Shown here in pieces: positions 10,646 to 54,485 of a stretch of DNA of 64,000 bases. Position numbers and translations under genes: made by a program. Source of the DNA: Bradyrhizobium tropiciagri (lineage in GTDB: Bacteria; Pseudomonadota; Alphaproteobacteria; Rhizobiales; Xanthobacteraceae); assembly GCF_001189845.1 (NCBI RefSeq), contig NZ_LFLZ01000046.1, forward strand, positions 1 to 64,000. The letters are read 5' to 3'. Under the pieces are notes generated by a model. The model did no database searches. It had not been told where the DNA came from and worked only from the letters and a program-made list of their open reading frames with translations. Each line of letters opens with the position of its first letter. Within the stretch, counting starts at the first letter, position 1.

Positions 10646-11470
10646 TCAATGACGAATCTCGTGCCGCTGGTCCCCGAGATTGGTGATACCGCATTCCAGC
10701 ACGTCTCCCGGCGTCAGGAACCGGTTCTTGCCGAAGCCGACGCCGGGAGGCGTTCCGGTCGCCAGAAGGTCGCCCGGAAGCAGCGTCATATGCCTGGAGA
10801 AATAAGCCAACATTTCGTTGACCGAAAACAGCATGTCGCTGGTACTGCCCTGTTGCTCGTATCGGCCATTCACCTTGGTCCATAGGTCGAGGTTCATGCC
10901 ATCGATGCCGGTGGTCAGGTAGGGCCCGATCGGCGTGTAGCCTGGCCGCGATTTGGCGCGGACAAGATGCTGGCCGCCCTCGCTATCGACCTGGGTGGCG
11001 CGGTCGGAAATATCGTTGAGGCAAACATAGCCGAAGATATAGTTCGGCGCCTCCGCGGCCGTGATGTCCTGCGCTTCGCGTCCGACCACGATTGCCAATT
11101 CCACTTCCCAGTCCAGCTTCGTGCCCGCATTCGGCCCGCGAGAGATCGGATCGCCAGGTCCGGCCAGGGAGGTAACCGCCTTCAGGAACACCTCGGGTTC
11201 AGTCGGCGGCTTCATTTTGAATTCCTCGATGTGCTTTTTGTAGTTGAAGCCGGTAGCTGAGATCTGCCGCAGGCCGCTGATCGGCGCGAGATAGTTGAAC
11301 GGGCCGCGGACTGGCGACAGTCCCGTTGTGTCCACCGCCTTCAAGGCGCCGCTCGCGATGGCCTCTGGCGTGATGTCCGACACGATCGGACGGAGGTCCA
11401 GATGTTCATCGCCTCTGAGGACGACGGGGATGATCCCATTTTCGGTGAGTACGCGCGCAAACTGTTGCAT
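10646..11470 (-). CDS. Fumarylacetoacetate hydrolase (FAH) family protein
   Basis: A 274-residue enzyme of the FAH superfamily, which hydrolyses or decarboxylates C-C bonds in 2,4-dioxo acids at the end of aromatic and sugar-acid pathways. The metal ligands are visible: DWEVELAIVVG supplies Glu122 and Glu124, and YVCLNDISDRATQ supplies Asp153. The later GDLLATGTPPGVG loop is also standard. It starts at the ATG at 11470 (AAGGAC upstream) and is divergent from a LysR regulator 187 bp away, which probably controls it. The substrate is unknown. Acylpyruvates and 2,4-diketo-3-deoxy sugar acids are typical. Confidence 0.87.
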   Translation of the reverse strand: MQQFARVLTENGIIPVVLRGDEHLDLRPIVSDITPEAIASGALKAVDTTGLSPVRGPFNYLAPISGLRQISATGFNYKKHIEEFKMKPPTEPEVFLKAVTSLAGPGDPISRGPNAGTKLDWEVELAIVVGREAQDITAAEAPNYIFGYVCLNDISDRATQVDSEGGQHLVRAKSRPGYTPIGPYLTTGIDGMNLDLWTKVNGRYEQQGSTSDMLFSVNEMLAYFSRHMTLLPGDLLATGTPPGVGFGKNRFLTPGDVLECGITNLGDQRHEIRH

Positions 11471-11632
11471 GGTCGATTGTCCTTTTTCGATGCGGCCGTC
11501 ATCGGTCGCGCCGCGGAATTGCGGCGGCCGGCGAAAACCCTCGGTCGGTTGCTGAATTGACGCGTCCTATCGCCGCGTCTGGTGTGAAGGTAGGCTCTTG
11601 AACTATAACCGTCCAAGATCGTTTTCTTACCC

Positions 11633-11649
11633 ATTCCATAAGCAGGAAT
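11633..11649. promoter_or_regulatory. Candidate LysR-type binding site in divergent promoter region
   Basis: ATTCC-N7-GGAAT is an inverted repeat ending 8 bp before the LysR start codon. A second weak dyad, TCTTG-N13-CAAGA, lies at 11596-11618. Either could be the autoregulatory or activation site for the FAH gene. This is inference from position only. Confidence 0.35.
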
Positions 11650-11657
11650 TATAGACG

Positions 11658-12542
11658 ATGCTGCTCCGCCATATCCGCTATTTGAAGGCAGTCGCCGATC
11701 TCGGCAGCTTCACCCGGGCGGCTCAAACGCTCCATGTCTCGCAACCAGCCCTTTCGCAACAAATCAAGGAATTGGAGGAGCGATTGGGCGCGCAATTGCT
11801 TGATCGCAGCGGACGCCAGGTTCGCCCCACAGATTTGGGGAGCGCCTATCTGGAGCGCGTGCACCGTGCGTTGAACGAACTCGAGGAAGGCGGCCGCGCC
11901 ATCCGCGATGTCGAGGATTTGTCCGCCGGCTCGCTTCGTCTCGGAATCACGCCTACGGTCGCCGCCTATTTGATCGGTCCGGTGTCGCGGCGCTTTCGCG
12001 CCAGCTATCCAAATATCAAGCTCTCGATTCTCGTTTCGTCGCATGAAGAGATCGAACCGGCGCTGATCGATGACAGACTTGATCTCGGGATCGGTTTTGG
12101 CGACCTGTTGTCTGAAGACATCGAGGGGATACTGCTTCATGTGGAGCGCCTTGCGCTGATCGTAAGTGCGAAGCGATCGTCGGTGCGCAAGACCGTCGTG
12201 ACCGCGGCCGAAGCCGCCAGCACCCCGCTCGCACTACTGGACTCGTCTTTCTCGATCCGTCGGACGGTAGAGCGCTATTTTCGGCACGAAGACCTTCGGC
12301 CGCAAATAGCCGTGGAAGCGAATTCCATTTCGACGCTGCTTGAGCTCGTCCGCATGACCGACCTTGCGACCATCCTTCCGGAAAATGTCGGTGGTGCAAG
12401 CCTGTCCACTATCAAGATGAACCCTGCGTTCGAACCTCGACGCGCCGCGCTGCTGCGCCGCCGCAATGCCTACTGTTCGGCGGCAGCCAGGGCCTTCATC
12501 GCCACGACACAACGGGTTGCTGCGGAATTCGCCGAGGGGTGA
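11658..12542 (+). CDS. LysR-family transcriptional regulator (CynR-like)
   Basis: A 294-residue LysR-type regulator. The N-terminal winged helix (GSFTRAAQTLHVSQPALSQQIKELEERLG, about residues 16-44) is followed by the linker helix and a periplasmic-binding-protein-like effector domain. It is transcribed divergently from the FAH-family hydrolase, the usual arrangement for a LysR protein and its target. The co-inducer is probably a substrate or product of that hydrolase. Ends at 12542. Confidence 0.9.
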   Translation: MLLRHIRYLKAVADLGSFTRAAQTLHVSQPALSQQIKELEERLGAQLLDRSGRQVRPTDLGSAYLERVHRALNELEEGGRAIRDVEDLSAGSLRLGITPTVAAYLIGPVSRRFRASYPNIKLSILVSSHEEIEPALIDDRLDLGIGFGDLLSEDIEGILLHVERLALIVSAKRSSVRKTVVTAAEAASTPLALLDSSFSIRRTVERYFRHEDLRPQIAVEANSISTLLELVRMTDLATILPENVGGASLSTIKMNPAFEPRRAALLRRRNAYCSAAARAFIATTQRVAAEFAEG

Positions 12543-25894: not shown

Positions 25895-26632
25895 TCACCT
25901 TCCCGTAAATCTCGGCTTGCGCTTCTCGCTGAAGGCCTTGACGCCTTCCTTGAGATCATCGCTGTCCCTGACTTCGTCGAGCAACCGCCGCACGTCGGCG
26001 ACCGTCTCCAGCGGCCCCTTCGGCATGGCTTCACGGGCGAGCTTCTTTAGCGCGCGGACCACCAGCGGCGCGTTGCCGGCGATCTTCGCGGCCATCTCCT
26101 GTGCCATCGCGATATGTTGTCCCTTTGCCACCACCTTGTTGACGAAACCGATCTGGTAGGCGCGCTCCGCCGACATCTCCTCGCCGACCAGAAGAAACTC
26201 CATCGCGATCTTGTGCGGCATCCGCGCCATCACCGACGAGACGCCACCCGCCGTGGTTCCGATCTTGCCCTCGGGATAAATGAAACGCGTCGTCTCCGAC
26301 GCCACGCACAAATCGGCCATCTGGACCAGCACGAAGGCCCCGCCGACCACCCAGCCAGACGTTGCCGCAACGACCGGCTTGTCCAGTTCGACGCCCAGAC
26401 CGGGGACCGCGTGCCACATATTGACCGGAAGGTCGGCCACATCGGCGCCGACCGAAAAATACTTCTCCTCCGAGGAAGCCAGCACCGCGACGCGATCGTC
26501 GCTGTCGCGAAAGCGCAGCCAGGCATCACGCAACTCGCTGCACAGCGCATTGTTCAGCGCATTGTGCTTTTCGCTGCGGGCCATCGTGATGGTGGCGACG
26601 TGATCCGCACTCTCGTAACGAACGAGCGTCAT
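25895..26632 (-). CDS. Enoyl-CoA hydratase/isomerase (crotonase) family protein
   Basis: A 245-residue crotonase-fold enzyme acting on acyl-CoA thioesters. Both acidic positions used by true hydratases appear to be occupied (Glu in YPEGKIG and Glu in KIAMEFLLVG), and the oxyanion-hole segments EEKYFSVGADVADL and SGWVVGGAFVLVQM are in place. That makes hydratase activity more likely than for the relative at 53674-54485. The ATG at 26632 with GGGAGG is preferred over the one at 26662. The downstream cupin gene lies beyond its 5' side, so it is probably expressed alone. Confidence 0.85.
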   Translation of the reverse strand: MTLVRYESADHVATITMARSEKHNALNNALCSELRDAWLRFRDSDDRVAVLASSEEKYFSVGADVADLPVNMWHAVPGLGVELDKPVVAATSGWVVGGAFVLVQMADLCVASETTRFIYPEGKIGTTAGGVSSVMARMPHKIAMEFLLVGEEMSAERAYQIGFVNKVVAKGQHIAMAQEMAAKIAGNAPLVVRALKKLAREAMPKGPLETVADVRRLLDEVRDSDDLKEGVKAFSEKRKPRFTGR

Positions 26633-37209: not shown

Positions 37210-38823
37210 TTACCGCGCATCCTCCAAAATCATGTCGGACGCCTTCTCCGCGATCATGATCGTCGGCGCGTTGGTGTTGCCCGACATCAGGTCCGGCATG
37301 ACGGAGGCATCGACCACGCGCAGCCCCTCGACACCGCGCACCTTGAGCCTGTTGTCGACCACCGCGAGCGCATCGTTGCCCATCCGGCAGGTCGAGGTCG
37401 GATGATAGACCGTGCTGCCGGTGCGGCGGCAGAAATCGAGCAGATCGTCGTCGCTGACCACCTTCGCGCCGGGATCGACTTCGCCAACCGAGTATGATTT
37501 CAGCGCCGGCGCGGCCAGGATCTTGCGCAGGATGCGGATGCCGTCGATGAAGGCGCGGCGATCGGTCTCGGTCGCCAGATAATTGATGCGGATTTCCGGC
37601 GGCACGCTGGGATCCGCGCTCCTGATCTTCAGCGAGCCGCGGCTCTCCGGGCGCAGCTGGCAGACCGAGGCCGTGAAGCCCGAGAACGGATGCAGCTTCT
37701 CGCCCATCTTGTCGGTCGAGAACGGCAGGAAGTGGATCTGGATGTCGGGCGACGCCAGCCGCGGGCTGGTCTTGAAGAACGCCCCCGACGTGCCGGCCGC
37801 GATCGTCAGCGGCCCCTCGCGCAGCGCGGCGTAGCGCAGGCCGGCCATGACGCGGCGCACCGGATTGTTGACGACGTCGTTCAGCGTCACCGTCTGCGCG
37901 CAGCGCGTGATGATGCGCACCTGCATGTGATCCTGCAAATCGTTGCCGACGCCGGGCGCATCGAGCACGATCTCGATGCCATGCTGCTTCAACAGCTCGG
38001 CCGGGCCGACGCCGGAGAGCTGCAGCAGTTGCGGCGAGTTGTATGCGCCGCTCGAGACCAGCACCTCTTTGCGCGCCTTGGCCGCGCGCAACTGCCCGTT
38101 CTGCTTATACGCAACACCGCTCGCGCGCTTGCCGTCGAACAGGATGCGCTGCGCCAGCGCCGAGGTCTCGACGCGCAGATTGCCGCGCGTCAGCGCCGGC
38201 CGCAGATAGGACCGCGCCGTCGAGGCGCGCCGGCCGCGCCGCGTCGTGGTCTGGAAGAAGCCCGCGCCCTCCTGGGTCGCGCCGTTGAAATCCGGATTGG
38301 TCGGAATGCCGACCTCGGCCGCAGCATGAACGAAGGCTTCCGACAGCGGATCGTGATGGCGCCAGTCCGACACCGGCAGCGGACCGCCCGCGCCGTGATA
38401 CTTGTCGCCGCCGCGTTGCTGATCCTCCGCCTTCCTGAAATAGGGCAGCACGTCGTCATAGCCCCATCCGGCATTGCCGCGCTGGCGCCAGCGATCGTAG
38501 TCCTCGTGCTGGCCGCGCACATAGAGCAGGCCGTTGATCGAGCTCGAGCCGCCAAGCACTTTTCCGCGCGGCTGGAACACCTGCCGCCCGTTCAGGCCGG
38601 GCTCGGGCTCGGTCTGGTACATCCAGTTGACGGATTTTTCCTTGAACAGCTTGCCGTAGCCGAGCGGGACATGGATCCAGATGTTGGTGTCCTTCGGCCC
38701 GGCCTCCAGCAGCAGCACCGAATGCTTGCCGTCGGCGCTCAGGCGATTGGCGAGCACGCAGCCGGCCGAGCCGGCACCGACGATGACGTAGTCATACTCG
38801 GCCGCATCATTATTGGCGTTCAC
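37210..38823 (-). CDS. GMC-family FAD oxidoreductase (choline-dehydrogenase-like)
   Basis: A 537-residue flavin-dependent alcohol oxidase or dehydrogenase. The FAD-binding motif VIVGAGSAGCVLANRLSADGKHSVLLLEAG opens the protein, followed by RGKVLGGSSSINGLLYVRG, the second GMC signature with GAYNSPQLLQLSGVGP, and the C-terminal catalytic HPTSTCRMG and NTNAPTIMIAEKA. It oxidises an alcohol to an aldehyde. The substrate is not fixed. The GTG at 38823 is preferred (GGGGGAAA upstream). An ATG at 39132 would add 103 residues of low family resemblance across a palindrome. Confidence 0.9.
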   Translation of the reverse strand: MNANNDAAEYDYVIVGAGSAGCVLANRLSADGKHSVLLLEAGPKDTNIWIHVPLGYGKLFKEKSVNWMYQTEPEPGLNGRQVFQPRGKVLGGSSSINGLLYVRGQHEDYDRWRQRGNAGWGYDDVLPYFRKAEDQQRGGDKYHGAGGPLPVSDWRHHDPLSEAFVHAAAEVGIPTNPDFNGATQEGAGFFQTTTRRGRRASTARSYLRPALTRGNLRVETSALAQRILFDGKRASGVAYKQNGQLRAAKARKEVLVSSGAYNSPQLLQLSGVGPAELLKQHGIEIVLDAPGVGNDLQDHMQVRIITRCAQTVTLNDVVNNPVRRVMAGLRYAALREGPLTIAAGTSGAFFKTSPRLASPDIQIHFLPFSTDKMGEKLHPFSGFTASVCQLRPESRGSLKIRSADPSVPPEIRINYLATETDRRAFIDGIRILRKILAAPALKSYSVGEVDPGAKVVSDDDLLDFCRRTGSTVYHPTSTCRMGNDALAVVDNRLKVRGVEGLRVVDASVMPDLMSGNTNAPTIMIAEKASDMILEDAR

Positions 38824-38880
38824 TGGTTTCCCCCGGAGTTTCTTTCTTCCGGTGGTACAGACAAAGCGGCGGCTTGAAAA

Positions 38881-38923
38881 GGCTAGAGCCCCATTCCGAT
38901 TTAATCGGAATGGGGCTCTAGCC
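38881..38923. repeat. 43-bp perfect palindrome
   Basis: A 21-bp arm starting GGCTAGAGCCCCATTCCGAT, one central T, and the exact complement. It is followed by TTTTGTTTTGACGC and a second segment (to about 38984) that resembles 61203-61301, so it belongs to a dispersed repeat family. The end overlaps the stop codon of the FAD monooxygenase gene. Confidence 0.9.
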
Positions 38924-38980
38924 TTTTGTTTTGACGCGTTTTCTTGACGCGAACCGGCATCCACCTCGCTCGAAAACGCT

Positions 38981-40582
38981 CTAGTGCCATGCGCTGAGGT
39001 TCTGGAGCAGTTGCCCGACAAGCATATTGAGCTCGTCGGCGTTCCTGGCAGCACCGAAGACGTAACGGTCAGGCCGCACGATGATAGCTGCAACACCATG
39101 TTGCCGCATCCAGTCGGCGAACAGCCCGTCACGCTCCACCACGCTCAGAACGCCGTCGGCATCACCGCTTTCACCTGATGTGATGATCACGATGCGCTCG
39201 CCGGCCAGATGCTGCCAGGCGGCACGGGATTCGTCCGATAGCCACACCATCGGCTCCGCTGCCGCCGTCACGATCGCAAATTCCGGCTTCAGCAGATCGT
39301 CGAGCCGACACGTTCGCCCGTCCGGCGCACGCACATGCGGCTGCACGAACAGCCGCCCGGCAAGGACAGCATCGCGCGCGATCAGACCGGAGACGAGATC
39401 GGGGATGAATTTCTGCCTGATGGTTTCGGCCTTGCCGGCTTTCAGATCGGCGCGCAATCGCACGTCACGTTCGGCGGCAGCCACGGGATCGAGCTCGCCG
39501 ATGATCTTGCCGAACTCCTTGGCGCTGGCGACGACGGCACGGACATGCGGCTTGCGCTCGACCTCGTAACTGTCGAGCAGCGCCTCGGCGGCATCGCCGC
39601 GCAGCACCAGCCTCAGCTTCCAGGCGAGGTTCACGGCATCGCGGATGCCGGCACACAGCCCCTGCCCGAGGAACGGCGGCATCTGGTGCACGGCATCGCC
39701 CATCAGCAGCACGCGGCGATCACGCCAGCGCTGCCCAAGCAGCGCGTGGAAGCGATAGACCGCCGAGCGCCAGATCGTGAGATCGGAGATGTCGGTGAAG
39801 CCCTGCAGCAACCGCACGACATTGTCGGGTGCGCCGGCCGCCTCGGGATCCTCGCCCGGCAGCAGCTTGATCTCCCAGCGCCGCAGATTGCGCGGACCCG
39901 GCACGAAGGTGCCGGGACGCGACGGCCAGCAATACTGAAAGCTCCTGGCCGGCCGCTTGGCGGGATCGCTGGTCAGCGTGTCCACCACCATCCACCATTC
40001 GTCGAAGGCAAGGTCGTCGAGGCCGACGCCGAGCTGCTTGCGGACAAAGCTGTTGGCGCCGTCGCAGCCGACCAGATAGCGCGCGCGGATCAGGAACTCC
40101 TCGCCTCGCTCGCGACGCGCGGTCAACGTCACCGCGGTGTCGTCCTGCTCGAGCGCCACGCCGGCGGTCGCAAGGAAAACGTCGACATGCGGATATTCGG
40201 CGAGCCTGTCGCGCAGCGCCTGCTCGAGGTCAGGCTGCACGAAGGTGACATTCGGAATCCAGCCGAGCGGGAACGGCGGCGGCATCGGATCGAAGATCTT
40301 GATGATCTCGCCGTCGACGCCGAGATAGTGCGAGCCGTTATGCGGAGCGATCGCCTGCTCCATGAAATCGCCGAGCCCGATCGCCTGCAGCACACGCAAC
40401 GCCTCGTGATCGAGCGTGATCGCGCGCGGCTTGTCGTAGATGTCGGCGACGCGCTCGACGACGGCAACACGCAAGCCGGCTTTCGCCAGCAGATTGGCGA
40501 AGATCGCGCCGACCGGTCCGAGGCCGACGATTGCCACATCGTAGATTGGATCAGGCTCGGGGTTTGCGACGGACAACGACAT
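38981..40582 (-). CDS. MhpA-like FAD-dependent aromatic monooxygenase
   Basis: A 533-residue class A flavoprotein hydroxylase. The N-terminal GxGxxG is VAIVGLGPVGAIFANLLAKAGLRVAVVE, the DG motif appears as YLVGCDGANSFVRKQLG, and the GD motif as RVLLMGDAVHQMPPFLGQGLCAGIRDAVNLAWKL. It resembles 3-(3-hydroxyphenyl)propionate hydroxylases, which add an OH group ortho to an existing one to give a catechol for ring cleavage. The next gene upstream, a VOC dioxygenase-like gene ending 2 bp before this start, is consistent with that role. The C-terminal part is longer than in p-hydroxybenzoate hydroxylase. Confidence 0.87.
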   Translation of the reverse strand: MSLSVANPEPDPIYDVAIVGLGPVGAIFANLLAKAGLRVAVVERVADIYDKPRAITLDHEALRVLQAIGLGDFMEQAIAPHNGSHYLGVDGEIIKIFDPMPPPFPLGWIPNVTFVQPDLEQALRDRLAEYPHVDVFLATAGVALEQDDTAVTLTARRERGEEFLIRARYLVGCDGANSFVRKQLGVGLDDLAFDEWWMVVDTLTSDPAKRPARSFQYCWPSRPGTFVPGPRNLRRWEIKLLPGEDPEAAGAPDNVVRLLQGFTDISDLTIWRSAVYRFHALLGQRWRDRRVLLMGDAVHQMPPFLGQGLCAGIRDAVNLAWKLRLVLRGDAAEALLDSYEVERKPHVRAVVASAKEFGKIIGELDPVAAAERDVRLRADLKAGKAETIRQKFIPDLVSGLIARDAVLAGRLFVQPHVRAPDGRTCRLDDLLKPEFAIVTAAAEPMVWLSDESRAAWQHLAGERIVIITSGESGDADGVLSVVERDGLFADWMRQHGVAAIIVRPDRYVFGAARNADELNMLVGQLLQNLSAWH

Positions 40583-40583
40583 G

Positions 40584-41579
40584 CTACTTCGCGAGGTGGC
40601 TCTCTAGCGTCAGCGGCTTCGGCTTCATCTGCGGCTCACGGATCGGAACATCGGCAAACGGCGTCGCCTCCTCGAACCAGGCCTGCCGCGCCGGCAGGCC
40701 CCATGGAAACGAGATCTTGTGGTCGGACGGATCCCAGCCGATCGGCTCGTTCTCGATGTCCATGATCTGGTAGTGGGTGTTGAAGAGCTCGACGCGGTGC
40801 CCGTCGGGATCGCGCATATAGACATACATCGCGTGTCCCGGCCCGTGCCGCCCCGGGCCGCGTTCGACGGCCGCGCCATAGCCGAGCTCGCCGGCGAGAT
40901 CGCAGGCGTTCAGCAGATAATGGATCTCGGGCGCCAGGAACGCGAAATGGTGCAGCCGCGGTCCCGCACCGTTGAAGAACACGATGTCGTGCGGATTGCC
41001 CTTGCGCTGCAGGAACACGCCGCGCAGATCGGACGTGCCGGCGGGCGCGATATACTCGCTGAGCCGGAAGCCCGCCGCGGTGTAGAATTCGCATGCCTTG
41101 CGCACGTCCGGCGTCAGCACCTGATAGTGATCGAGCCGCAGCGCTGAGCCGCCGGCATGGCGGCTGAATTGCGTGATCATGCGCGGCTCGACCGGCATGG
41201 TCGCACAGAACTCCAGCGGCGTTCCCGCCGGATCGGTCGCCTGCAGCGTGCGGCCCTGGTGCGGCACCTCGGCCCAGGCGGCCTCGCATCCATGCGCCTC
41301 GAAGAAAGCCTTGAGCCGATCGAGGTCGTCGTCCCTGAACACCCGCAGGCCAAGCCGCGCGCAGACCGCGCCCTTGCCCTTGCGCAACACAAGGCTGTGA
41401 TGACAGGCCTCCTCGACACCGCGGAAGTAGAGCGTGTCACCCTGCTCCGCGGTCAGGATCAGCCCGATCACCTTTTCGTAAAACCGCCGGCTCGCCGCGA
41501 GGTCGCGGACGGTCAGGACCACATGGCTCGCCCGCGTGATACGAAACCCGGGATCATGGTTCGTGGCCGGGAGGCTCAT
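40584..41579 (-). CDS. Extradiol ring-cleavage dioxygenase-like VOC protein
   Basis: A 331-residue two-domain VOC protein resembling catechol 2,3-dioxygenase and homoprotocatechuate 2,3-dioxygenase. The metal triad is visible: His in LRLDHYQVLTPD, His in RLHHFAFLAPE and Glu in DGHRVELFNTHY, the 2-His-1-carboxylate set for Fe(II). The N-terminal domain carries the repeat of the fold (HVVLTVRDLAASRRFYEKVIGL). AGAAGG precedes the ATG at 41579. It forms an operon with the FAD hydroxylase downstream (2 bp between them), so the pair can hydroxylate a phenol and cleave the resulting catechol. Confidence 0.87.
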   Translation of the reverse strand: MSLPATNHDPGFRITRASHVVLTVRDLAASRRFYEKVIGLILTAEQGDTLYFRGVEEACHHSLVLRKGKGAVCARLGLRVFRDDDLDRLKAFFEAHGCEAAWAEVPHQGRTLQATDPAGTPLEFCATMPVEPRMITQFSRHAGGSALRLDHYQVLTPDVRKACEFYTAAGFRLSEYIAPAGTSDLRGVFLQRKGNPHDIVFFNGAGPRLHHFAFLAPEIHYLLNACDLAGELGYGAAVERGPGRHGPGHAMYVYMRDPDGHRVELFNTHYQIMDIENEPIGWDPSDHKISFPWGLPARQAWFEEATPFADVPIREPQMKPKPLTLESHLAK

Positions 41580-41859
41580 GCGCACCTTCTGGTTTTTAGT
41601 CGCGGGAACCCGACTCATTGCGAAAAACCGGCGAGCGATCAAGCAGCGCGCTGGGCAAACTCTGCCGGTCCGTGACGTCGCGTCACGCATTTGTATCAAT
41701 TTGTTAGCAATGCCCGCCCGTGGAACCGAAACGTGAGCCCAGCGTGGCACGGTCTGTTCCAATAGTTCATAGTTTGTCAAAGGTTTGCAGAGAATTCTTC
41801 GGCGCTGCGCCACGGCCAACCGCGCAGGCGACGTCGTGACGCGCAGGCAACGTAGTGAG

Positions 41860-43818
41860 ATGCGTACCTATCTCAGATCATATTTCGCGGCCCTGTTCGC
41901 GGGTGACCTCGCGGCCTTCGGCGCACCGACGGATGAAGCGCTTGCCGGCCACATCCGCGCCGAGCAGGTGTCGCTCGTGCTCGGCTATTCCTTCGGCATC
42001 ATGCTGGCCAACGCCTGCAACGCGCTGGTGCTGGCAGCTGCGTTGTGGCAATCGCCCGATTGGATCTTTGCGCTGGTGTGGGCGGCCGCCGTGAGCGGCG
42101 CCGCGCTGTTCTTCGGCCTGCAGGCGCGCGCATCGCGCCGCATCGCCAAACCGCAATTCGTCTCGCGACGAACCATGCACCGGCTGGTGCGCAATGCGCT
42201 GGCGCTCGGCGCCGCCTGGGGCGTCGTCCCCGTCGCCTTCTTCGCGAACGCATCGAGCGGCGCACAATTGGTGATCACGTGTCTTTGCGCAGGCATGCTG
42301 GCCGGCGGCGCTTTCGCGTTCTCCACGATTCCGATCGCCGCGATCGCGTTTACCGCGCCGATCTTCGTCGGCACCGCGATCTGCCTCGGCCGCGACGGCG
42401 ACTTCATCTATCTCCTGATGGCGGTCCTCGTGCTGGTCTACGGCTCCGTGCTGCTGCGCGGCGTCTTCGTCAATGCGTTCGAGTTCCGCCGGCGCATCAT
42501 TGCCCAGCATGAGGCCGAGCGGACGGTGCGGCAGGATCCGCTGACGCATCTGCCGAACCGCGTCGCCTTCAACGAGGCGCTCAGCGGCGCGCTGAACCGC
42601 CTGTCGCGCTCGGGCGAGGAATTCGCCGTGCTGCTGCTCGATCTCGATCGCTTCAAGGAGATCAACGACAGGTTCGGCCGTCCGGCAGGCGACGAATTCC
42701 TGGTGCAGGTCGCGGCCCGGTTGCAGCGCTGCACGCGCGCGGCCGAGCATGTCGCGCGGATCGGCGGCGACGAGTTCGCGCTGATCATGTCCAATCTGAC
42801 CCGGCCCGAGGACGTGCTTGCGATCGCCGAACGGTTCGTCGCGGCCTTCGCCGATCCATTCCCGATCGACGGATTCGAGATATCAAGCGCGATCAGCATC
42901 GGCATCGTGCTCGCGCCGCGGGACGGCAACACATCGCACGATCTGCTCAAGCATGTCGACATCGCGCTCTACCGCGCGAAGAAGTCCGGTCCCGGCACGA
43001 TCTGCTTCTTCGAGGCGAGCGACGATCAATCGGCGCGCGACCGCCGCGCCTTGCAGCGCGACCTCGAACAGGCGATCGAGGCGAACCAGCTGTTTCTCGT
43101 CTACCAGCCGTTCCTCGACATCCGCAAAGGCCGCATCACCGGCTTCGAGGCGCTGTTGCGCTGGCAGCATCCGGCGCGCGGCCTGATCCCGCCGAGCGTC
43201 TTCATTCCGATCGCCGAGGAGAGCGGCCTGATCCACCAGCTCGGCGAGTGGGTGATCCGCCACGCCTGCGCGATGCTGTCGCGCTGGCCTGACGACGTCA
43301 GGATCGCGGTGAATTTCTCCGCGGTCCAGTTCCAGAACGTCGGCATCCTGCAAACCATCGTCGAGGCGCTTGCCGAGGCCAACGTCGCGCCGAACCGGCT
43401 CGAGATCGAAATCACCGAGTCGATGCTGATCTCGAAATACGGATCGGCGCCCGCGATCCTGAACGGGCTGCTCGAGCTTGGCCTGACGGTTGCGCTCGAC
43501 GATTTCGGCACCGGCTTTTCGTCGCTGACCTATCTGCGCAAGCTGCCGTTCAGCCGCATCAAGATCGATCAATCCTTCATCCGGGACATGCTGACCCAGC
43601 CGGATTGCGCCGCGATCGTCAAATCGGTGATCGGCCTCGCGCAGGACCTGCAGATCGGCGTCGTGGCCGAAGGCGTCGAGACCGCCGATCAGCTCGAATA
43701 TCTGCGCCAGACCAGTTGCGACGAGGTCCAGGGCTATCTGATCGGCCGGCCGATGTCCGCCAGCGAGATCACCGCGCTGCTCGATCACGATCCGCAGCAC
43801 TCGGTGCACGCGGCGTAG
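41860..43818 (+). CDS. GGDEF-EAL c-di-GMP turnover protein with N-terminal membrane region
   Basis: About 652 residues. The N-terminal ~220 residues hold about six membrane helices. The diguanylate cyclase domain has an intact GGDEF (RIGGDEFALI, near residue 301) and the phosphodiesterase domain an intact EAL (GFEALLRWQHP, near residue 430), plus DDFGTGFSSL. So it could both make and degrade c-di-GMP. The start is uncertain: an ATG at 41860 has a weak ribosome site, and a TTG at 41785 is another. It is divergent from the ring-cleavage operon, with a 280-bp gap. Confidence 0.9.
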   Translation: MRTYLRSYFAALFAGDLAAFGAPTDEALAGHIRAEQVSLVLGYSFGIMLANACNALVLAAALWQSPDWIFALVWAAAVSGAALFFGLQARASRRIAKPQFVSRRTMHRLVRNALALGAAWGVVPVAFFANASSGAQLVITCLCAGMLAGGAFAFSTIPIAAIAFTAPIFVGTAICLGRDGDFIYLLMAVLVLVYGSVLLRGVFVNAFEFRRRIIAQHEAERTVRQDPLTHLPNRVAFNEALSGALNRLSRSGEEFAVLLLDLDRFKEINDRFGRPAGDEFLVQVAARLQRCTRAAEHVARIGGDEFALIMSNLTRPEDVLAIAERFVAAFADPFPIDGFEISSAISIGIVLAPRDGNTSHDLLKHVDIALYRAKKSGPGTICFFEASDDQSARDRRALQRDLEQAIEANQLFLVYQPFLDIRKGRITGFEALLRWQHPARGLIPPSVFIPIAEESGLIHQLGEWVIRHACAMLSRWPDDVRIAVNFSAVQFQNVGILQTIVEALAEANVAPNRLEIEITESMLISKYGSAPAILNGLLELGLTVALDDFGTGFSSLTYLRKLPFSRIKIDQSFIRDMLTQPDCAAIVKSVIGLAQDLQIGVVAEGVETADQLEYLRQTSCDEVQGYLIGRPMSASEITALLDHDPQHSVHAA

Positions 43819-43840
43819 CCTGATCGAGCGCCCGCGCCCG

Positions 43841-44833
43841 TCACAGGACGTCGGGGCGATGCAGTGTGTCCACCGTGATGGTGCCGCGCGCACGCGAAAC
43901 ACACGCGCAGATCTTGCGGCTTTCCCGCTTCTGGTGCTCGCTGAAGAAGACGTCGCGATGGTCGATTTCGCCGTCGACAGCGACGACGTCGAGCGCACAG
44001 ACGCCGCATTCGCCGCGCCGGCAGTCGCTCATCACTTCATGGCCGGCGTCGTTGAGCACGTCCAGCATCGAGCGGTCGTGCGGGATCACGAACTCGGTGC
44101 CCAACTCGCCGCCCTGGCCCGCGAGCCGCACGCGGAACGCCTCGGTCGGCAACAGCCCGCTCGATCCAAAGGTCTCGTAACGCAGGTCGGTCATCGCCCG
44201 GCCGGACGCTTCCCAGGCGCGCCGCGCTGCATCCAGCATCCGCATCGGCCCACAAAACAGCGTCATCGTATCCCGCGGCAGGTTTGCGAAGACGCGTTCG
44301 AGGTCAAGCCGGCTGCCCTCGTCACCGGCATGGACGATGAGGCGCTCGCCGAGCAAACCTTCGAGCCTATCGAGATAGGCCGCATCGCTGCGCGTGCGCA
44401 CGGCATAGTGCAGCACAACGCCTGCGTTGCGGCGGGCCAGCGCCTGTGCCGCACCGACGATCGGCGTGATGCCGACGCCGCCCGCGATCAGGCAGAACTG
44501 CCGCCGCGTCCAGTCGAGCTGCATCAGCGAGGCGGGCTGCGTGATGTTGAGCCGCGCCCCCGGCGCGAGCGACCACATGTAGCGCGAGCCGCCGCGCGAA
44601 TCCGGAGCGCGCCGCACCGCGATCCGATAGCCTTGCGGATCGACTTCGCCGACCAGCGAATAGGAACGGGTCTGCGGCTGGCCGTCGATGGTGACGCCGA
44701 CATCGATATGACTGCCGACGGGATAGGGCGCGCCGGTGAAATGATCCGGCCGCAGCAGGAATTCGCGGATGGCGGGCGTGAGGTCGCGCGTCTCAACCAG
44801 CGTCGCTGATGTCCAGGTTTCGATGAATCGCAT
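43841..44833 (-). CDS. PDR/VanB-type oxygenase reductase (FMN, NAD, 2Fe-2S)
   Basis: A 330-residue electron-transfer protein. It has the flavin domain (residues 10-110, TRSYSLVGEV), the NAD domain (LIAGGVGITPIVGAAQALARR, about 125-220), and a C-terminal plant-type 2Fe-2S ferredoxin (CRRGECGVCALDVV with later Cys in ICACVSRA). This is the phthalate dioxygenase reductase/vanillate demethylase reductase layout. It very probably delivers electrons to the Rieske oxygenase encoded in the same operon. The regulator gene sits between them. GGAGCG precedes the ATG. Confidence 0.9.
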   Translation of the reverse strand: MRFIETWTSATLVETRDLTPAIREFLLRPDHFTGAPYPVGSHIDVGVTIDGQPQTRSYSLVGEVDPQGYRIAVRRAPDSRGGSRYMWSLAPGARLNITQPASLMQLDWTRRQFCLIAGGVGITPIVGAAQALARRNAGVVLHYAVRTRSDAAYLDRLEGLLGERLIVHAGDEGSRLDLERVFANLPRDTMTLFCGPMRMLDAARRAWEASGRAMTDLRYETFGSSGLLPTEAFRVRLAGQGGELGTEFVIPHDRSMLDVLNDAGHEVMSDCRRGECGVCALDVVAVDGEIDHRDVFFSEHQKRESRKICACVSRARGTITVDTLHRPDVL

Positions 44834-44845
44834 GGCGCGCTCCGT

Positions 44846-45592
44846 TCAGCCTGATGTGATCAGCGCCAGTGCCGGCAGCAGATCGAGGTGAGTGCGGTTG
44901 CGCAGCGCGAGCCGCAGATTGCGCGCCGCAAGCCGGGCGTGCTCGCGCATGACCGCTTCGGCGCGCGCGCCCTCGCGATTCTCGATGGCGTCGACCACCA
45001 CGCGATGGTGGTCCTGCGCGATCAGCAGGATCTGGCGCGCCTCGGGCAGGGCCGATTGCGCCATCACGAAGCCGCTCGGCGAGGCGAACGGCAGCGCCGA
45101 GGCGCGGTCGATCTGCCGGATCAGCGGCGGGCTGCGCGACAACTCGGTCAGCAGCGCATGGAAACGCGCGTTGAGCGCGACATAGGATGAAAACGCTTCG
45201 ACCGAGATCGGATCCTGCCGCACCAGGCCATCGATCTCGTTGAGGCATTCCTTCAGCGGCTCGAGATCGCGCGACGACACGCCGCGCTCGGCGGCAAAGC
45301 GCGCAGCCAGCCCCTCCAGCGTGCCGCGCAGCTCGATCGAATCGAGAATGTCCCGCTCGGAAAATGCCTTGACCATGAAGCCGCCGGACGGGATCGCCTC
45401 CAGCAGGCCTTCCTCCTCGAGCCGGACCAGCGCCATCCGCACCGGCGTGCGCGACACCCCGGTGATCTCGACCGCCTGCAGCTCGGATATGCGCTCGCCC
45501 GGCCGCAGCCGGCCCGAGAGCACGAGATCGCGCAGCGCAAGCTGCGCCCGCACGGTCTGCGACACGGAGCGATCGGTTTCGCGTTCCGCCAT
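44846..45592 (-). CDS. GntR-family (FCD-type) regulator of the oxygenase operon
   Basis: A 248-residue GntR regulator. The N-terminal winged helix is clear (SELQAVEITGVSRTPVRMALVRLEEEGLLEAIPSGGFMV, about residues 38-77), followed by a long all-alpha FCD domain. The stop is 13 bp before the reductase start and its own start is 6 bp after the oxygenase stop, so the three genes are one operon. The two GTATAC sites at 46680 and 46743 match the kind of site this subfamily binds, and would make the gene autoregulated. The ATG at 45592 has GGAG upstream. Confidence 0.88.
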   Translation of the reverse strand: MAERETDRSVSQTVRAQLALRDLVLSGRLRPGERISELQAVEITGVSRTPVRMALVRLEEEGLLEAIPSGGFMVKAFSERDILDSIELRGTLEGLAARFAAERGVSSRDLEPLKECLNEIDGLVRQDPISVEAFSSYVALNARFHALLTELSRSPPLIRQIDRASALPFASPSGFVMAQSALPEARQILLIAQDHHRVVVDAIENREGARAEAVMREHARLAARNLRLALRNRTHLDLLPALALITSG

Positions 45593-45597
45593 GCCGC

Positions 45598-46644
45598 CTA
45601 CTCCGCTGCCTGCAGCTGCGACGGAGTCTCCTTCGCCACCATGCGGTCGATGACGCGCCGCGCCCACATCGCGCCGGCATCGATGTTGAGATTGTAGAAT
45701 ACGCGGTCCGGATTCTCGTCCATCGCGCGCTGTTGCGCCTCCAGGATGATCTCGTCCTCGTGGAAGATGCCGGCGACGCCGTCGCGGATTTCGCTGGTCA
45801 GACGCTGCTCGGTGATGCGGTGATTGCGGACGAAGGCCCAGAAATAATGGCAGGTCTTCTCGGTCTCCGGCGTGATGGTGTTGAGCACATAGCCGTTCAC
45901 GCCCTGCGAGCGATCGCCTTCCGGCGCGCCCGATCCGGCCGGCGCGACGCCGACATCGATATTGACGGTGCATGGCGCCTCGAAGCGGATGATCTGCCAG
46001 CGATCGACCGGGCCCGGCTTCTGCAGCTGCTTGGCCCAGAACGGTGGCGCCTCGATGCCCTGCATCCAGCGCGTCACCGTCACGGTCTTCTCGCCATGGG
46101 TGACGTCGAACGGCGCTTCGGCGACCGCATCATTTCCGATGCTCGAGCCGTGCACGAAGGTCTCGTGCGTCAGGTCCATCAGATTGTCGACGACGAGGCG
46201 GTAATCGCATTTGACGTGAATGGTCTTGCCGTCGCCGGCCCAGGCCGGATCGTGATTCCAGTGCATGTCGGGCACCAGCGCCGGATCGGCCAGCGCGGGA
46301 TCGCCCATCCAGAGCCAGATGAAGCGGTGGCGCTCGACGACGGGATAGGCGCGCACGCAGGCCGACGGATTGATCGTCTCCTGCGAGGGCATGAAGGTGC
46401 AGCGGCCCTGTGCATTGTATTTCAGGCCGTGATAGCCGCAGACCACGGTATCGCCGTCGAGCCGGCCCTTGGAGAGCGGCACCAGGCGATGCCAGCAGGC
46501 ATCCTCGAGCGCCACGACCTCGCCGTCACCCTTCCGGTACATCACGACATGCTTGCCGCAGATCGTCCGCGGCAACAGCGCGTGCTTGATCTCGGCGTCC
46601 CAGCCGGCCGCGTACCACGCGTTCATGGGGAAGGGTTTTGGCAT
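45598..46644 (-). CDS. Rieske oxygenase large subunit (VanA-like aromatic demethylase/hydroxylase)
   Basis: A 348-residue oxygenase component. The Rieske 2Fe-2S ligands are Cys50 and His52 (ACWHRLVPLSKG) and Cys69 and His72 (VCGYHG). The mononuclear-iron site follows in DNLMDLTHETFVHGSS. Note CWH in place of the more common CPH. It resembles vanillate O-demethylase and similar one-subunit oxygenases that work with a PDR-type reductase, which is encoded two genes on. The start at 46644 carries GAGGGC. Substrate is inferred only as a substituted aromatic acid or related compound. Confidence 0.88.
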   Translation of the reverse strand: MPKPFPMNAWYAAGWDAEIKHALLPRTICGKHVVMYRKGDGEVVALEDACWHRLVPLSKGRLDGDTVVCGYHGLKYNAQGRCTFMPSQETINPSACVRAYPVVERHRFIWLWMGDPALADPALVPDMHWNHDPAWAGDGKTIHVKCDYRLVVDNLMDLTHETFVHGSSIGNDAVAEAPFDVTHGEKTVTVTRWMQGIEAPPFWAKQLQKPGPVDRWQIIRFEAPCTVNIDVGVAPAGSGAPEGDRSQGVNGYVLNTITPETEKTCHYFWAFVRNHRITEQRLTSEIRDGVAGIFHEDEIILEAQQRAMDENPDRVFYNLNIDAGAMWARRVIDRMVAKETPSQLQAAE

Positions 46645-46676: not shown

Positions 46677-46750
46677 TATGTATACATCATTAGCCATCAT
46701 AATACAAATTACGGTAATATAATACTTTGATATCCAATTTACGTATACAG
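46677..46750. promoter_or_regulatory. Paired GTATAC operator sites and AT-rich promoter of the Rieske operon
   Basis: The sequence GTATAC occurs at 46680-46685 (in ATGTATACAT) and 46743-46748 (in ACGTATACAG). Their spacing is 63 bp, six turns of B-DNA, so both face the same side. The 60 bp between them are strikingly rich in A and T. The first lies 36 bp before the oxygenase start. GntR FCD regulators bind GT-N-AC type palindromes of this sort. Assignment to the operon's own GntR is inference. Confidence 0.6.
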
Positions 46751-50679: not shown

Positions 50680-51090
50680 TCAGGGACGCAATGTCGGCGA
50701 CGTATTCGGTGCCGGCGCCTGCTCCATCTCGGCCTCTTCGGGCAGCTTGTCGGCATGGACGGCGAGCGGCGTGCCGATCCAGAGCGGATCGTCGCGATGA
50801 TCGCGGCGCGGATTGGTCGTGTTGGGATGGACCAGGATGCTCAGGCTGCCGTGGTTGAGCATCAGCCACGGCACCAGGGTCGGAAACAGCTCGGCCACAA
50901 ACGCCACCTGATACATCGCCTGATCGTGCGGGCCGACCTTGACGTCGTGCCAGCGCCCAAGCGTGACCAGGAAACGCTCGCCCATCCAGTTGCGCAGGCG
51001 CTCGGCCTCGCCGCGGCTGGTTGCGGGATCGTAATAGACATGGGCGTGATAGCTCGCGATCTCGCCGATCGTCCGTGGCGCGTCCGTCAT
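50680..51090 (-). CDS. DOPA 4,5-dioxygenase-family protein
   Basis: A 136-residue protein of the DOPA-dioxygenase family (fungal and plant enzymes open the ring of DOPA, and bacterial members are mostly uncharacterised). The signature is [10 protein letters not shown] at the N-terminus with a pair of His. [10 protein letters not shown] and [16 protein letters not shown] follow. The ATG at 51090 is preceded by GGAGAGG. It is just after the methyltransferase gene (stop at 51113), so the two may be co-expressed. Confidence 0.8.
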
Positions 51091-53673: not shown

Positions 53674-54485
53674 ATGCCCAATATCTCAGAGAAGTCGCTC
53701 GCCGACGGCAAGATCCTGCAAAGTGTGGTCGACGGCGTCGGCGTCATCACCTTCAACAACCCCGGCAAGCGCAACGCGATGTCGCTGGAGATGTGGGAAG
53801 GGCTCGGTGAGGCGTTGATCGCCCTGCGCGACGATCCGGCGGTCCGTGTCGTGATCCTGGTCGCGCCGGCGACAAGGCCTTCGTGTCGGGCGCCGATATC
53901 AGCCAATTCGAGAAGACGAGACACAACGCCGAGGCCTCCGAGGAATATTCGCGGCGCAGCGCCGCCCAGCGCGCTTTGCTCGCCGACTACCCGAAGCCGA
54001 CCATTGCCTGCATCCGCGGCTTCTGTCTCGGCGGCGGAATGCAGGTCGCGATGCTGACCGATATCCGCATCGCAGGCGCCAGCGGCCAGTTCGGCATTCC
54101 CGCCGCCAAGCTCGGCATCGCCTATGGCTATGACGGCTTGCGCCATCTGGTGTCGCTGGTCGGCCCGTCCTGGGCGCGGCTGATCATGTATACGGGGATG
54201 CGGATCGATTCCGCGGAAGCGCTGCGGATCGGCCTCGTCGATCGCGTGCTGCCGGATGCCGAGCTCTGGGACGCGACCATGGAGATCGCGCGCACCATCT
54301 CGGGCAACGCGCCGCTGGCGATCAAGGCCGCCAAGATCACCATCGCGCAGGTGCTGAAGGATCCCGCCGATCGCGACATGGCCGCGATCAAGCAGATCGG
54401 CATCGACTGCATGGACAGCGCGGATTTCCGCGAAGGCCGCAACGCCTTCATGGAAAAGCGCAAGCCGCAGTTCAAGGGCCGGTAG
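53674..54485 (+). pseudogene. Crotonase-fold protein, split by a -1 frameshift
   Basis: The first frame starts MPNISEKSLADGKILQSVVDGVGVITFNNPGKRNAMSLEM and breaks at about 53868, where GTCGCGCC would need to be GTCGGCGCC to read GAGDKAFVSGADISQFE. The second frame continues to a normal C-terminus. Both Glu positions used by true hydratases are replaced (IPAAKLGIAYG, WARLIMYTG), so even when intact it is unlikely to hydrate enoyl-CoA and may be an isomerase or dehalogenase relative. It is followed by a family A repeat. Confidence 0.82.

Follow-up and report, generated by a model that had tools for sequence, protein, structure and literature searches.

The aromatic-degradation block of a Bradyrhizobium tropiciagri contig probably comprises two separately inherited units, a vanARB operon and a hydroxylase/dioxygenase gene pair

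The subject of this study is a block of six genes at positions 38981-46644 of a 64,000-nucleotide (nt) stretch of Bradyrhizobium tropiciagri DNA (contig NZ_LFLZ01000046.1; the whole stretch is referred to as the window), which an initial annotation had described as an uncharacterised aromatic-degradation block whose enzymes could act together in one pathway. We consider it likely that the block instead consists of two separately inherited catabolic units, a vanARB operon and a hydroxylase/dioxygenase gene pair, since the two halves differ in their distribution, have a gene on the opposite strand between them and share no TGTATACA box, and since the pair is kept where vanA is gone and vanARB is kept where the dioxygenase is reduced to a stub. 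The vanARB half is known, and the pair is another hydroxylase and extradiol dioxygenase pair of known type. One supposed new pathway is thus replaced by two separable and testable units, one of which can be named and is widespread in the genus.

In the first unit, the reductase VanB would feed electrons to VanA, which would take the methyl group off vanillate or syringate as formaldehyde. In the second unit, the hydroxylase would convert a phenol, probably plant-derived, to a catechol, which the dioxygenase would then cleave in meta fashion; the ring-fission product would be handled by enzymes encoded elsewhere, perhaps by those of the hpa cluster of the same genome. The features concerned are the following:

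38981-40582, minus strand: hydroxylase, class A flavoprotein aromatic hydroxylase of the MhpA superfamily (Pfam FAD_binding_3; NF004829; 33% identity to E. coli MhpA)
40584 to 41579 or 41585, minus strand: type I (VOC) extradiol dioxygenase resembling HpaD, with a score under the HpaD cutoff (Pfam/NCBIfam, alignment)
41860-43818, plus strand: cyclic di-GMP protein with GGDEF and EAL domains (Pfam)
43841-44833, minus strand: vanB, phthalate dioxygenase reductase (PDR)-type reductase with FAD, NAD and C-terminal 2Fe-2S domains (Pfam; PDB relatives; 62% identity to the third gene of the Rhodopseudomonas operon)
44846-45592, minus strand: vanR, GntR/FCD regulator (Pfam FCD and GntR; 85% identity to the regulator between Rhodopseudomonas vanA and vanB)
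45598-46644, minus strand: vanA, Rieske and VanA_C oxygenase, the oxygenase component of a vanillate/syringate O-demethylase (Pfam; 83-84% identity to the ORF, or open reading frame, located by published primers)
46679-46686, upstream of vanA: TGTATACA palindrome, presumed VanR operator (sole exact copy in the window)
38879-38925, between the hydroxylase and GMC genes: perfect 20-bp hairpin, terminator-like (palindrome scan)
37210-38823, minus strand: GMC oxidoreductase, a neighbour of the block (Pfam/NCBIfam)

Composition of the block

All six block genes are intact ORFs on the strands first noted, and Pfam and NCBIfam bear out both the gene families that the initial annotation had assigned and its reading of them as genes of aromatic catabolism (59 genes were called in the window, 47 of which were run against Pfam). 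The GGDEF/EAL gene is convergent with vanB and divergent from the dioxygenase gene, so that a transcript common to both halves would be possible only by read-through of that gene. The intergenic gaps measure 5 nt between vanA and vanR, 12 nt between vanR and vanB, and 1 nt between the stop codon (TAG) of the dioxygenase gene and the ATG of the hydroxylase gene, in line with the claim that the latter two are translationally close. Translation of the dioxygenase begins at GTG 41585 or ATG 41579, of which homologues favour the ATG. The median ratio of nonsynonymous to synonymous substitution rates, calculated with our own script over up to 16 relatives, amounts to 0.12 (dioxygenase, n=15), 0.16 (hydroxylase, n=16) and 0.06 (Rieske gene, n=15), which indicates that these three genes are more than chance ORFs and are maintained by selection where they are intact.

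The Rieske half corresponds to vanARB

The Rieske-GntR-reductase half (43841-46644) is, as judged from its sequence, the already known vanARB operon, and the attribute "uncharacterised" does not apply to it. The vanA product combines a Rieske domain with Pfam VanA_C (174.5 bits) and is encoded together with a PDR-type reductase, whose PDB relatives include phthalate dioxygenase reductase (2pia); this combination of oxygenase and reductase is that of VanAB. The Rhodopseudomonas operon rpa3619-3621 has the order vanA-vanR-vanB; deletion and complementation established that vanAB is required for anaerobic syringate growth in an adapted strain, and vanARB transcripts are reported to be up in aerobic vanillate growth as well (PMC6974649; the work is taken up in PMC12366328). 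To locate this operon, we searched 391 genomes of the family with the published primer whose end falls on the start of Rhodopseudomonas vanA; it matched 4 of them, 2 exactly and all of one genus. The loci L159 and L160 were taken to represent Rhodopseudomonas on the ground of these primer matches. In L159, both upstream outer primers match exactly and both downstream outer primers with 1 mismatch, flanking three genes; the inner downstream primer has 3 mismatches, a fit no better than that at another position within vanA. The three genes stand in the same order as vanA, vanR and vanB of the window, to which they are 83/85/62% (L159) and 84/85/62% (L160) identical, so that gene order with a GntR-type vanR in the middle and similarity both tie the window operon to an experimentally required vanARB. 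The neighbouring genes differ.

The TGTATACA palindrome upstream of vanA occurs in one exact copy in the 64-kb window (shuffle mean 0.00) and recurs upstream of vanA-type genes in 39 of 40 distinct regions, a number that includes second copies and the Rhodopseudomonas loci; the exception is B. ivorense. These counts, like those below, leave out loci whose upstream stretch was shorter. The GntR-type repressor VanR probably binds this box. The Caulobacter VanR site was absent from 13 vanA upstream regions at up to 3 changes. By similarity, order and box the operon is vanARB; binding of VanR and the substrate in this strain are what this identity would predict. A second vanARB-like operon lies on another contig of the source genome (C30:74110-76916), is 84/87/71% identical to the first and carries its own TGTATACA box. 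The source assembly comprises 9.77 Mb in 189 contigs.

The hydroxylase/dioxygenase pair

The pair most likely is a two-gene operon whose products act in sequence, a prediction based on the enzyme families, the 1-nt spacing, the intact catalytic residues of the dioxygenase and the repeated pairing described below; the earlier proposal that the two enzymes make and then cleave a catechol is plausible from the families. The hydroxylase passes the subfamily model NF004829 (PRK06183.1-3) with 522.5 bits against a cutoff of 390 and fails the MhpA equivalog models PRK06183.1-1, -2, -4 and -5, the nearest score being 405.2 against 546. It shares the flavoprotein superfamily with E. coli MhpA, the 3-(3-hydroxyphenyl)propionate hydroxylase (33% identity over 527 columns), but the mhpB-F partners of the E. 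coli locus, used for comparison, have no counterpart among the block genes in Pfam or NCBIfam. MhpB belongs to another dioxygenase family than the dioxygenase of the block.

The best model for the dioxygenase is that of HpaD, TIGR02295, and the question thus arises whether the enzyme is a second HpaD, with the pair degrading a hydroxyphenylacetate via homoprotocatechuate. Its 36% identity to the homoprotocatechuate 2,3-dioxygenase MndD speaks for this, as does the alignment, in which the metal ligands and acid-base residues (H155, H214, E267, H200 and Y257) as well as R243 and H248 are kept. The score of 299.6 bits falls below the curated cutoff of 321.4, however, and N157, W192 and R292, which MndD shares with three HpaD-type rows, are replaced in this enzyme by Q, F and I, although a lysine stands one column before the lost R292 and might be counted in favour of an HpaD function. 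Moreover, the source genome already has a full-scoring HpaD (447.8 bits) together with HpaE, HpaH and HpaR genes on contig C6, whereas neither Pfam nor NCBIfam places an hpaE or hpaH gene among the block genes. We consider a second HpaD unlikely on this balance and regard the protein as an active-looking extradiol dioxygenase with a putatively changed substrate pocket. A further HpaD-like dioxygenase was found at L037:9428-10429 (G000:C1:231427-232422); it is 52% identical to that of the window and passes the HpaD cutoff (331.1 against 321.4), and its neighbours, judged by eye, are a thiamine pyrophosphate enzyme, an aminotransferase and an aldehyde dehydrogenase.

Adjacent co-oriented genes and intact dioxygenase residues make the pair comparable to HcdAB of Pseudomonas mandelii 7HK4, a class A FAD hydroxylase and a type I extradiol dioxygenase that act sequentially on 3-(2,4-dihydroxyphenyl)propionate (PMC6222606). 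HcdAB, likened here by description, is the best working parallel and differs in that the HcdC hydrolase is adjacent there while no hydrolase stands beside the window pair. The earlier observation that the block lacks a hydrolase or hydratase thus stands, as Pfam and NCBIfam find none among its six genes. The Pfam hits to such families elsewhere in the window, an FAA hydrolase at 10646-11470 and crotonases at 25895-26632 and 53883-54485, are all distant. The FAA hydrolase gene, accompanied by a divergent LysR regulator gene (together 10646-12542), is approximately 27.5 kb from the block; the ring-fission product might be processed by this hydrolase or by products of the hpa genes on C6, and the initial annotation had suggested FAH or crotonase genes for this role. 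A small protein of the DOPA 4,5-dioxygenase family is encoded at 50680-51090.

Distribution and linkage of the two halves

We compared the presence of both halves in a set of 265 Bradyrhizobium genomes. The Rieske protein is found at E<=1e-200 in 227 of them, while the hydroxylase is present at full length and at least 76% identity in 28 (one more genome has it in two pieces, and three have matches at 49-50%; among named Bradyrhizobium relatives the identity is 76-94%). The dioxygenase occurs at full length and at least 81% identity in 23 genomes, plus two partial matches, of which one (G210) turned out to be full length, its ORF carrying an insertion of about 20 residues, and the other (G105) spans two frames. 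Both pair genes are full length in 23 genomes, 22 from the searches alone and G210 in addition. Among these 22 the pair genes are same-strand neighbours without exception; they adjoin directly in 20, while in the other 2 (G111, G197) a GntR gene intervenes. Matches on plasmids were all below 60% identity (170 records for the hydroxylase, 122 for the dioxygenase), and plasmid carriage of the pair was rejected.

The two halves also part company in individual genomes. B. pachyrhizi (L076) has lost vanA and vanR and carries vanB in two pieces, yet both of its pair genes are full length; conversely, vanARB is present with only a dioxygenase stub in G004 (49 residues; locus L043) and G186 (about 77 residues; locus L150). 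Two genomes (G281, G060) have a dioxygenase with most of the middle missing, in G225 an end piece of 79 residues is left of it, and the stretch beside the hydroxylase in G192 and G213 bears no trace of the gene. Relatives that lack the pair, such as L046-L049, L064 and L065, likewise have the GGDEF/EAL gene next to vanARB. Gene surroundings were read for 21 of 36 relative loci, plus L072, L074 and L099, with a gene caller trained on nine window genes; among the 21, L098, L101, L103 and L105 gave no called genes.

These data bear directly on the single pathway proposed earlier, in which VanAB would demethylate a methoxyphenol, the flavin hydroxylase would add a second ortho hydroxyl group and the dioxygenase would open the ring. 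Protocatechuate, the product of VanAB, is already a catechol. The markedly different distributions, the opposite-strand gene between the units and the pair retained in L076 where vanA is gone all count against a joint pathway, as does the lack of a common box: TGTATACA was found in 0 of 30 distinct regions upstream of the dioxygenase, stubs and full-module loci included, and in 0 of 25 distinct regions upstream of the hydroxylase. Co-regulation of the pair by VanR was rejected on the same ground, the box standing upstream of vanA and not upstream of the pair. Furthermore, vanAB works in Rhodopseudomonas (PMC6974649), whereas the 13-kb stretches of L159 and L160, to which the search was confined, contain neither pair gene.

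Several observations nevertheless weigh against a clean separation of two units, or against the pair as a fixed entity. The linkage is old: of the 22 genomes with both pair genes, 20 have vanA no more than about 8 kb from the pair (21 of 23 with G210), and the stretches covered in the remaining two (L076, L138) do not contain vanA. G192 and G213 carry the vanARB, hydroxylase and GMC genes in this order on a single strand; the hydroxylase directly follows vanB, with gaps of 89 and 110 nt, and may be co-transcribed with vanARB there; if it has been captured into that transcript, VanAB would gain a follow-on step. In L139, a larger module containing the pair is the neighbour of vanARB, a single small called ORF lying in the gap. 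The halves may be linked, in some lineages perhaps functionally; the linkage may also reflect inheritance of one site. Moreover, a full-length hydroxylase stands beside a broken, reduced or absent dioxygenase in five genomes (G105, G281, G225, G192, G213), and G116, which lacks this hydroxylase, has the dioxygenase (81%) next to a 43% member of the hydroxylase family. Both cases weaken the view that the enzymes only work as a pair. Hydroxylases of Variovorax and Streptomyces (46-51%) have FAA-hydrolase-like neighbours and no such dioxygenase in the stretch. Taking both sides together, we judge a single pathway quite improbable and retain the reading of two separately inherited units.

A larger module related to the pair

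The pair is probably the reduced form of a larger module with the order divergent short-chain dehydrogenase/reductase (SDR), then DctP, DctQ and DctM of a TRAP importer, dioxygenase, GntR regulator and hydroxylase. The full module is present in B. jicamae SZCCT0349 (L102/L139, one genome), where in L139 one further gene follows the SDR gene, in Bradyrhizobium sp. AUGA SZCCT0176 (L087/L138, one genome) and, under the labels Rhizobiales or Rhizobium, in five metagenome-assembled genomes (L091-L095). Two further contigs, L088 (Burkholderiales) and L090 (Pseudolabrys), are short and carry as much of the module as falls within them. Its annotation rests on Pfam for the genes of L091 and the regulator of L087 and, for the others, on similarity and position. 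A tree of 27 chosen hydroxylases unites the window-type rows in a single clade (100/99), with the full-module rows placed outside it, some nearby and some further out. The tree is midpoint-rooted, with long branches (MhpA, Streptomyces, Rhodococcus and others) that are unsurely placed. This layout fits the idea that the lineage of the window would have lost the importer, the regulator and the SDR. The chromosomal site then presents a loss series, from the full module through the pair and the hydroxylase with a broken dioxygenase to the stub.

Related gene sets support sequential action of the two enzymes, as their partnership recurs. In a cluster on the plasmid pRLCBG43 of Rhodococcus erythropolis, a dioxygenase (46%), a hydroxylase (44%) and an SDR (54% identity to the compared proteins) stand side by side; this cluster differs in its order SDR-VOC-FAH-hydroxylase-FAH, with FAA hydrolases, and in its MFS transporter, and contains no TRAP importer in the stretch read. 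Distant Bradyrhizobium hydroxylases (L053-L055, L060) are encoded beside another VOC dioxygenase and an FAA-hydrolase-like protein of 281-283 residues; L061 has the same partners with a gene lying between, and those of L053 were confirmed by Pfam.

Given that the pocket residue at 292 is less polar than in HpaD, the substrate might also be a flavonoid, on which the hydroxylase would act before the dioxygenase opens the A ring, as in FdeE/FdeC or Ifc. The fde and ifc clusters, likened here by description, contain the same enzyme types, and Bradyrhizobium is listed among the IfcA carriers in PMC11069340. The genus comprises legume symbionts, which would suit such a substrate. The larger module, however, has a TRAP importer, and importers of this kind usually carry small organic acids; cleavage of a flavonoid A ring is therefore, in our estimation, another unlikely explanation. 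Literature word searches on the gene types of the module together returned no described substrate, which is weak evidence of absence. It is possible, and we put this forward tentatively, that the module is an undescribed phenolic-acid catabolic system of Bradyrhizobium and other Hyphomicrobiales, with a part in a Burkholderiales contig and a related set in Rhodococcus, that its dioxygenase pocket has been remodelled, that the window holds a two-gene remnant of it beside vanARB with relatives in decay, and that the bare hydroxylase was perhaps captured into the vanARB transcript in two genomes. The importer-regulator-hydroxylase-dioxygenase arrangement recurs, and simple enzyme assays could reveal its substrate.

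Regulatory elements and neighbouring genes

A promoter scan returned no sigma-70-type promoter for the pair (shuffles mean 1.2). The interval from the GGDEF/EAL gene to the dioxygenase gene contains two conserved blocks, which were considered as a private promoter of the pair and rejected; they are also present in dioxygenase-less relatives (2-6 and 0-4 changes) and, since they occur without the dioxygenase, probably belong to the GGDEF/EAL gene. A 36-nt block at 41761-41796, upstream of the GGDEF/EAL gene, is identical in many relatives, shows 2-6 changes where the dioxygenase is absent and is probably a regulatory leader of that gene.

The GMC gene is unlikely to be a third member of the pair operon, as it stands at the site without the pair in L046-L048, L064 and L065 and as a long hairpin lies between. 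Palindrome hits in the region of this hairpin (38879-38925) are no more frequent than in shuffles, although its stem length is notable; none of 172 other loci contains an exact copy of its arm sequence.

At the same site another operon precedes the GMC gene in L043 (L043:11957-18549) and also in L072, L074, L142, L150, L151 and L152. In L043 it encodes an HbpS-like protein, an aldehyde dehydrogenase, a 513-residue protein that matched no Pfam family, a haem-oxygenase-like protein, two ferredoxin-like proteins and a GntR regulator; Pfam was applied to L043 only, and the other loci were assigned by similarity and order. Finally, an inverted repeat, CGTGACG/CGTCACG, lies at 41671-41687, about 100 nt upstream of the dioxygenase gene; it is partly conserved in the aligned relatives and is a possible operator of the pair.

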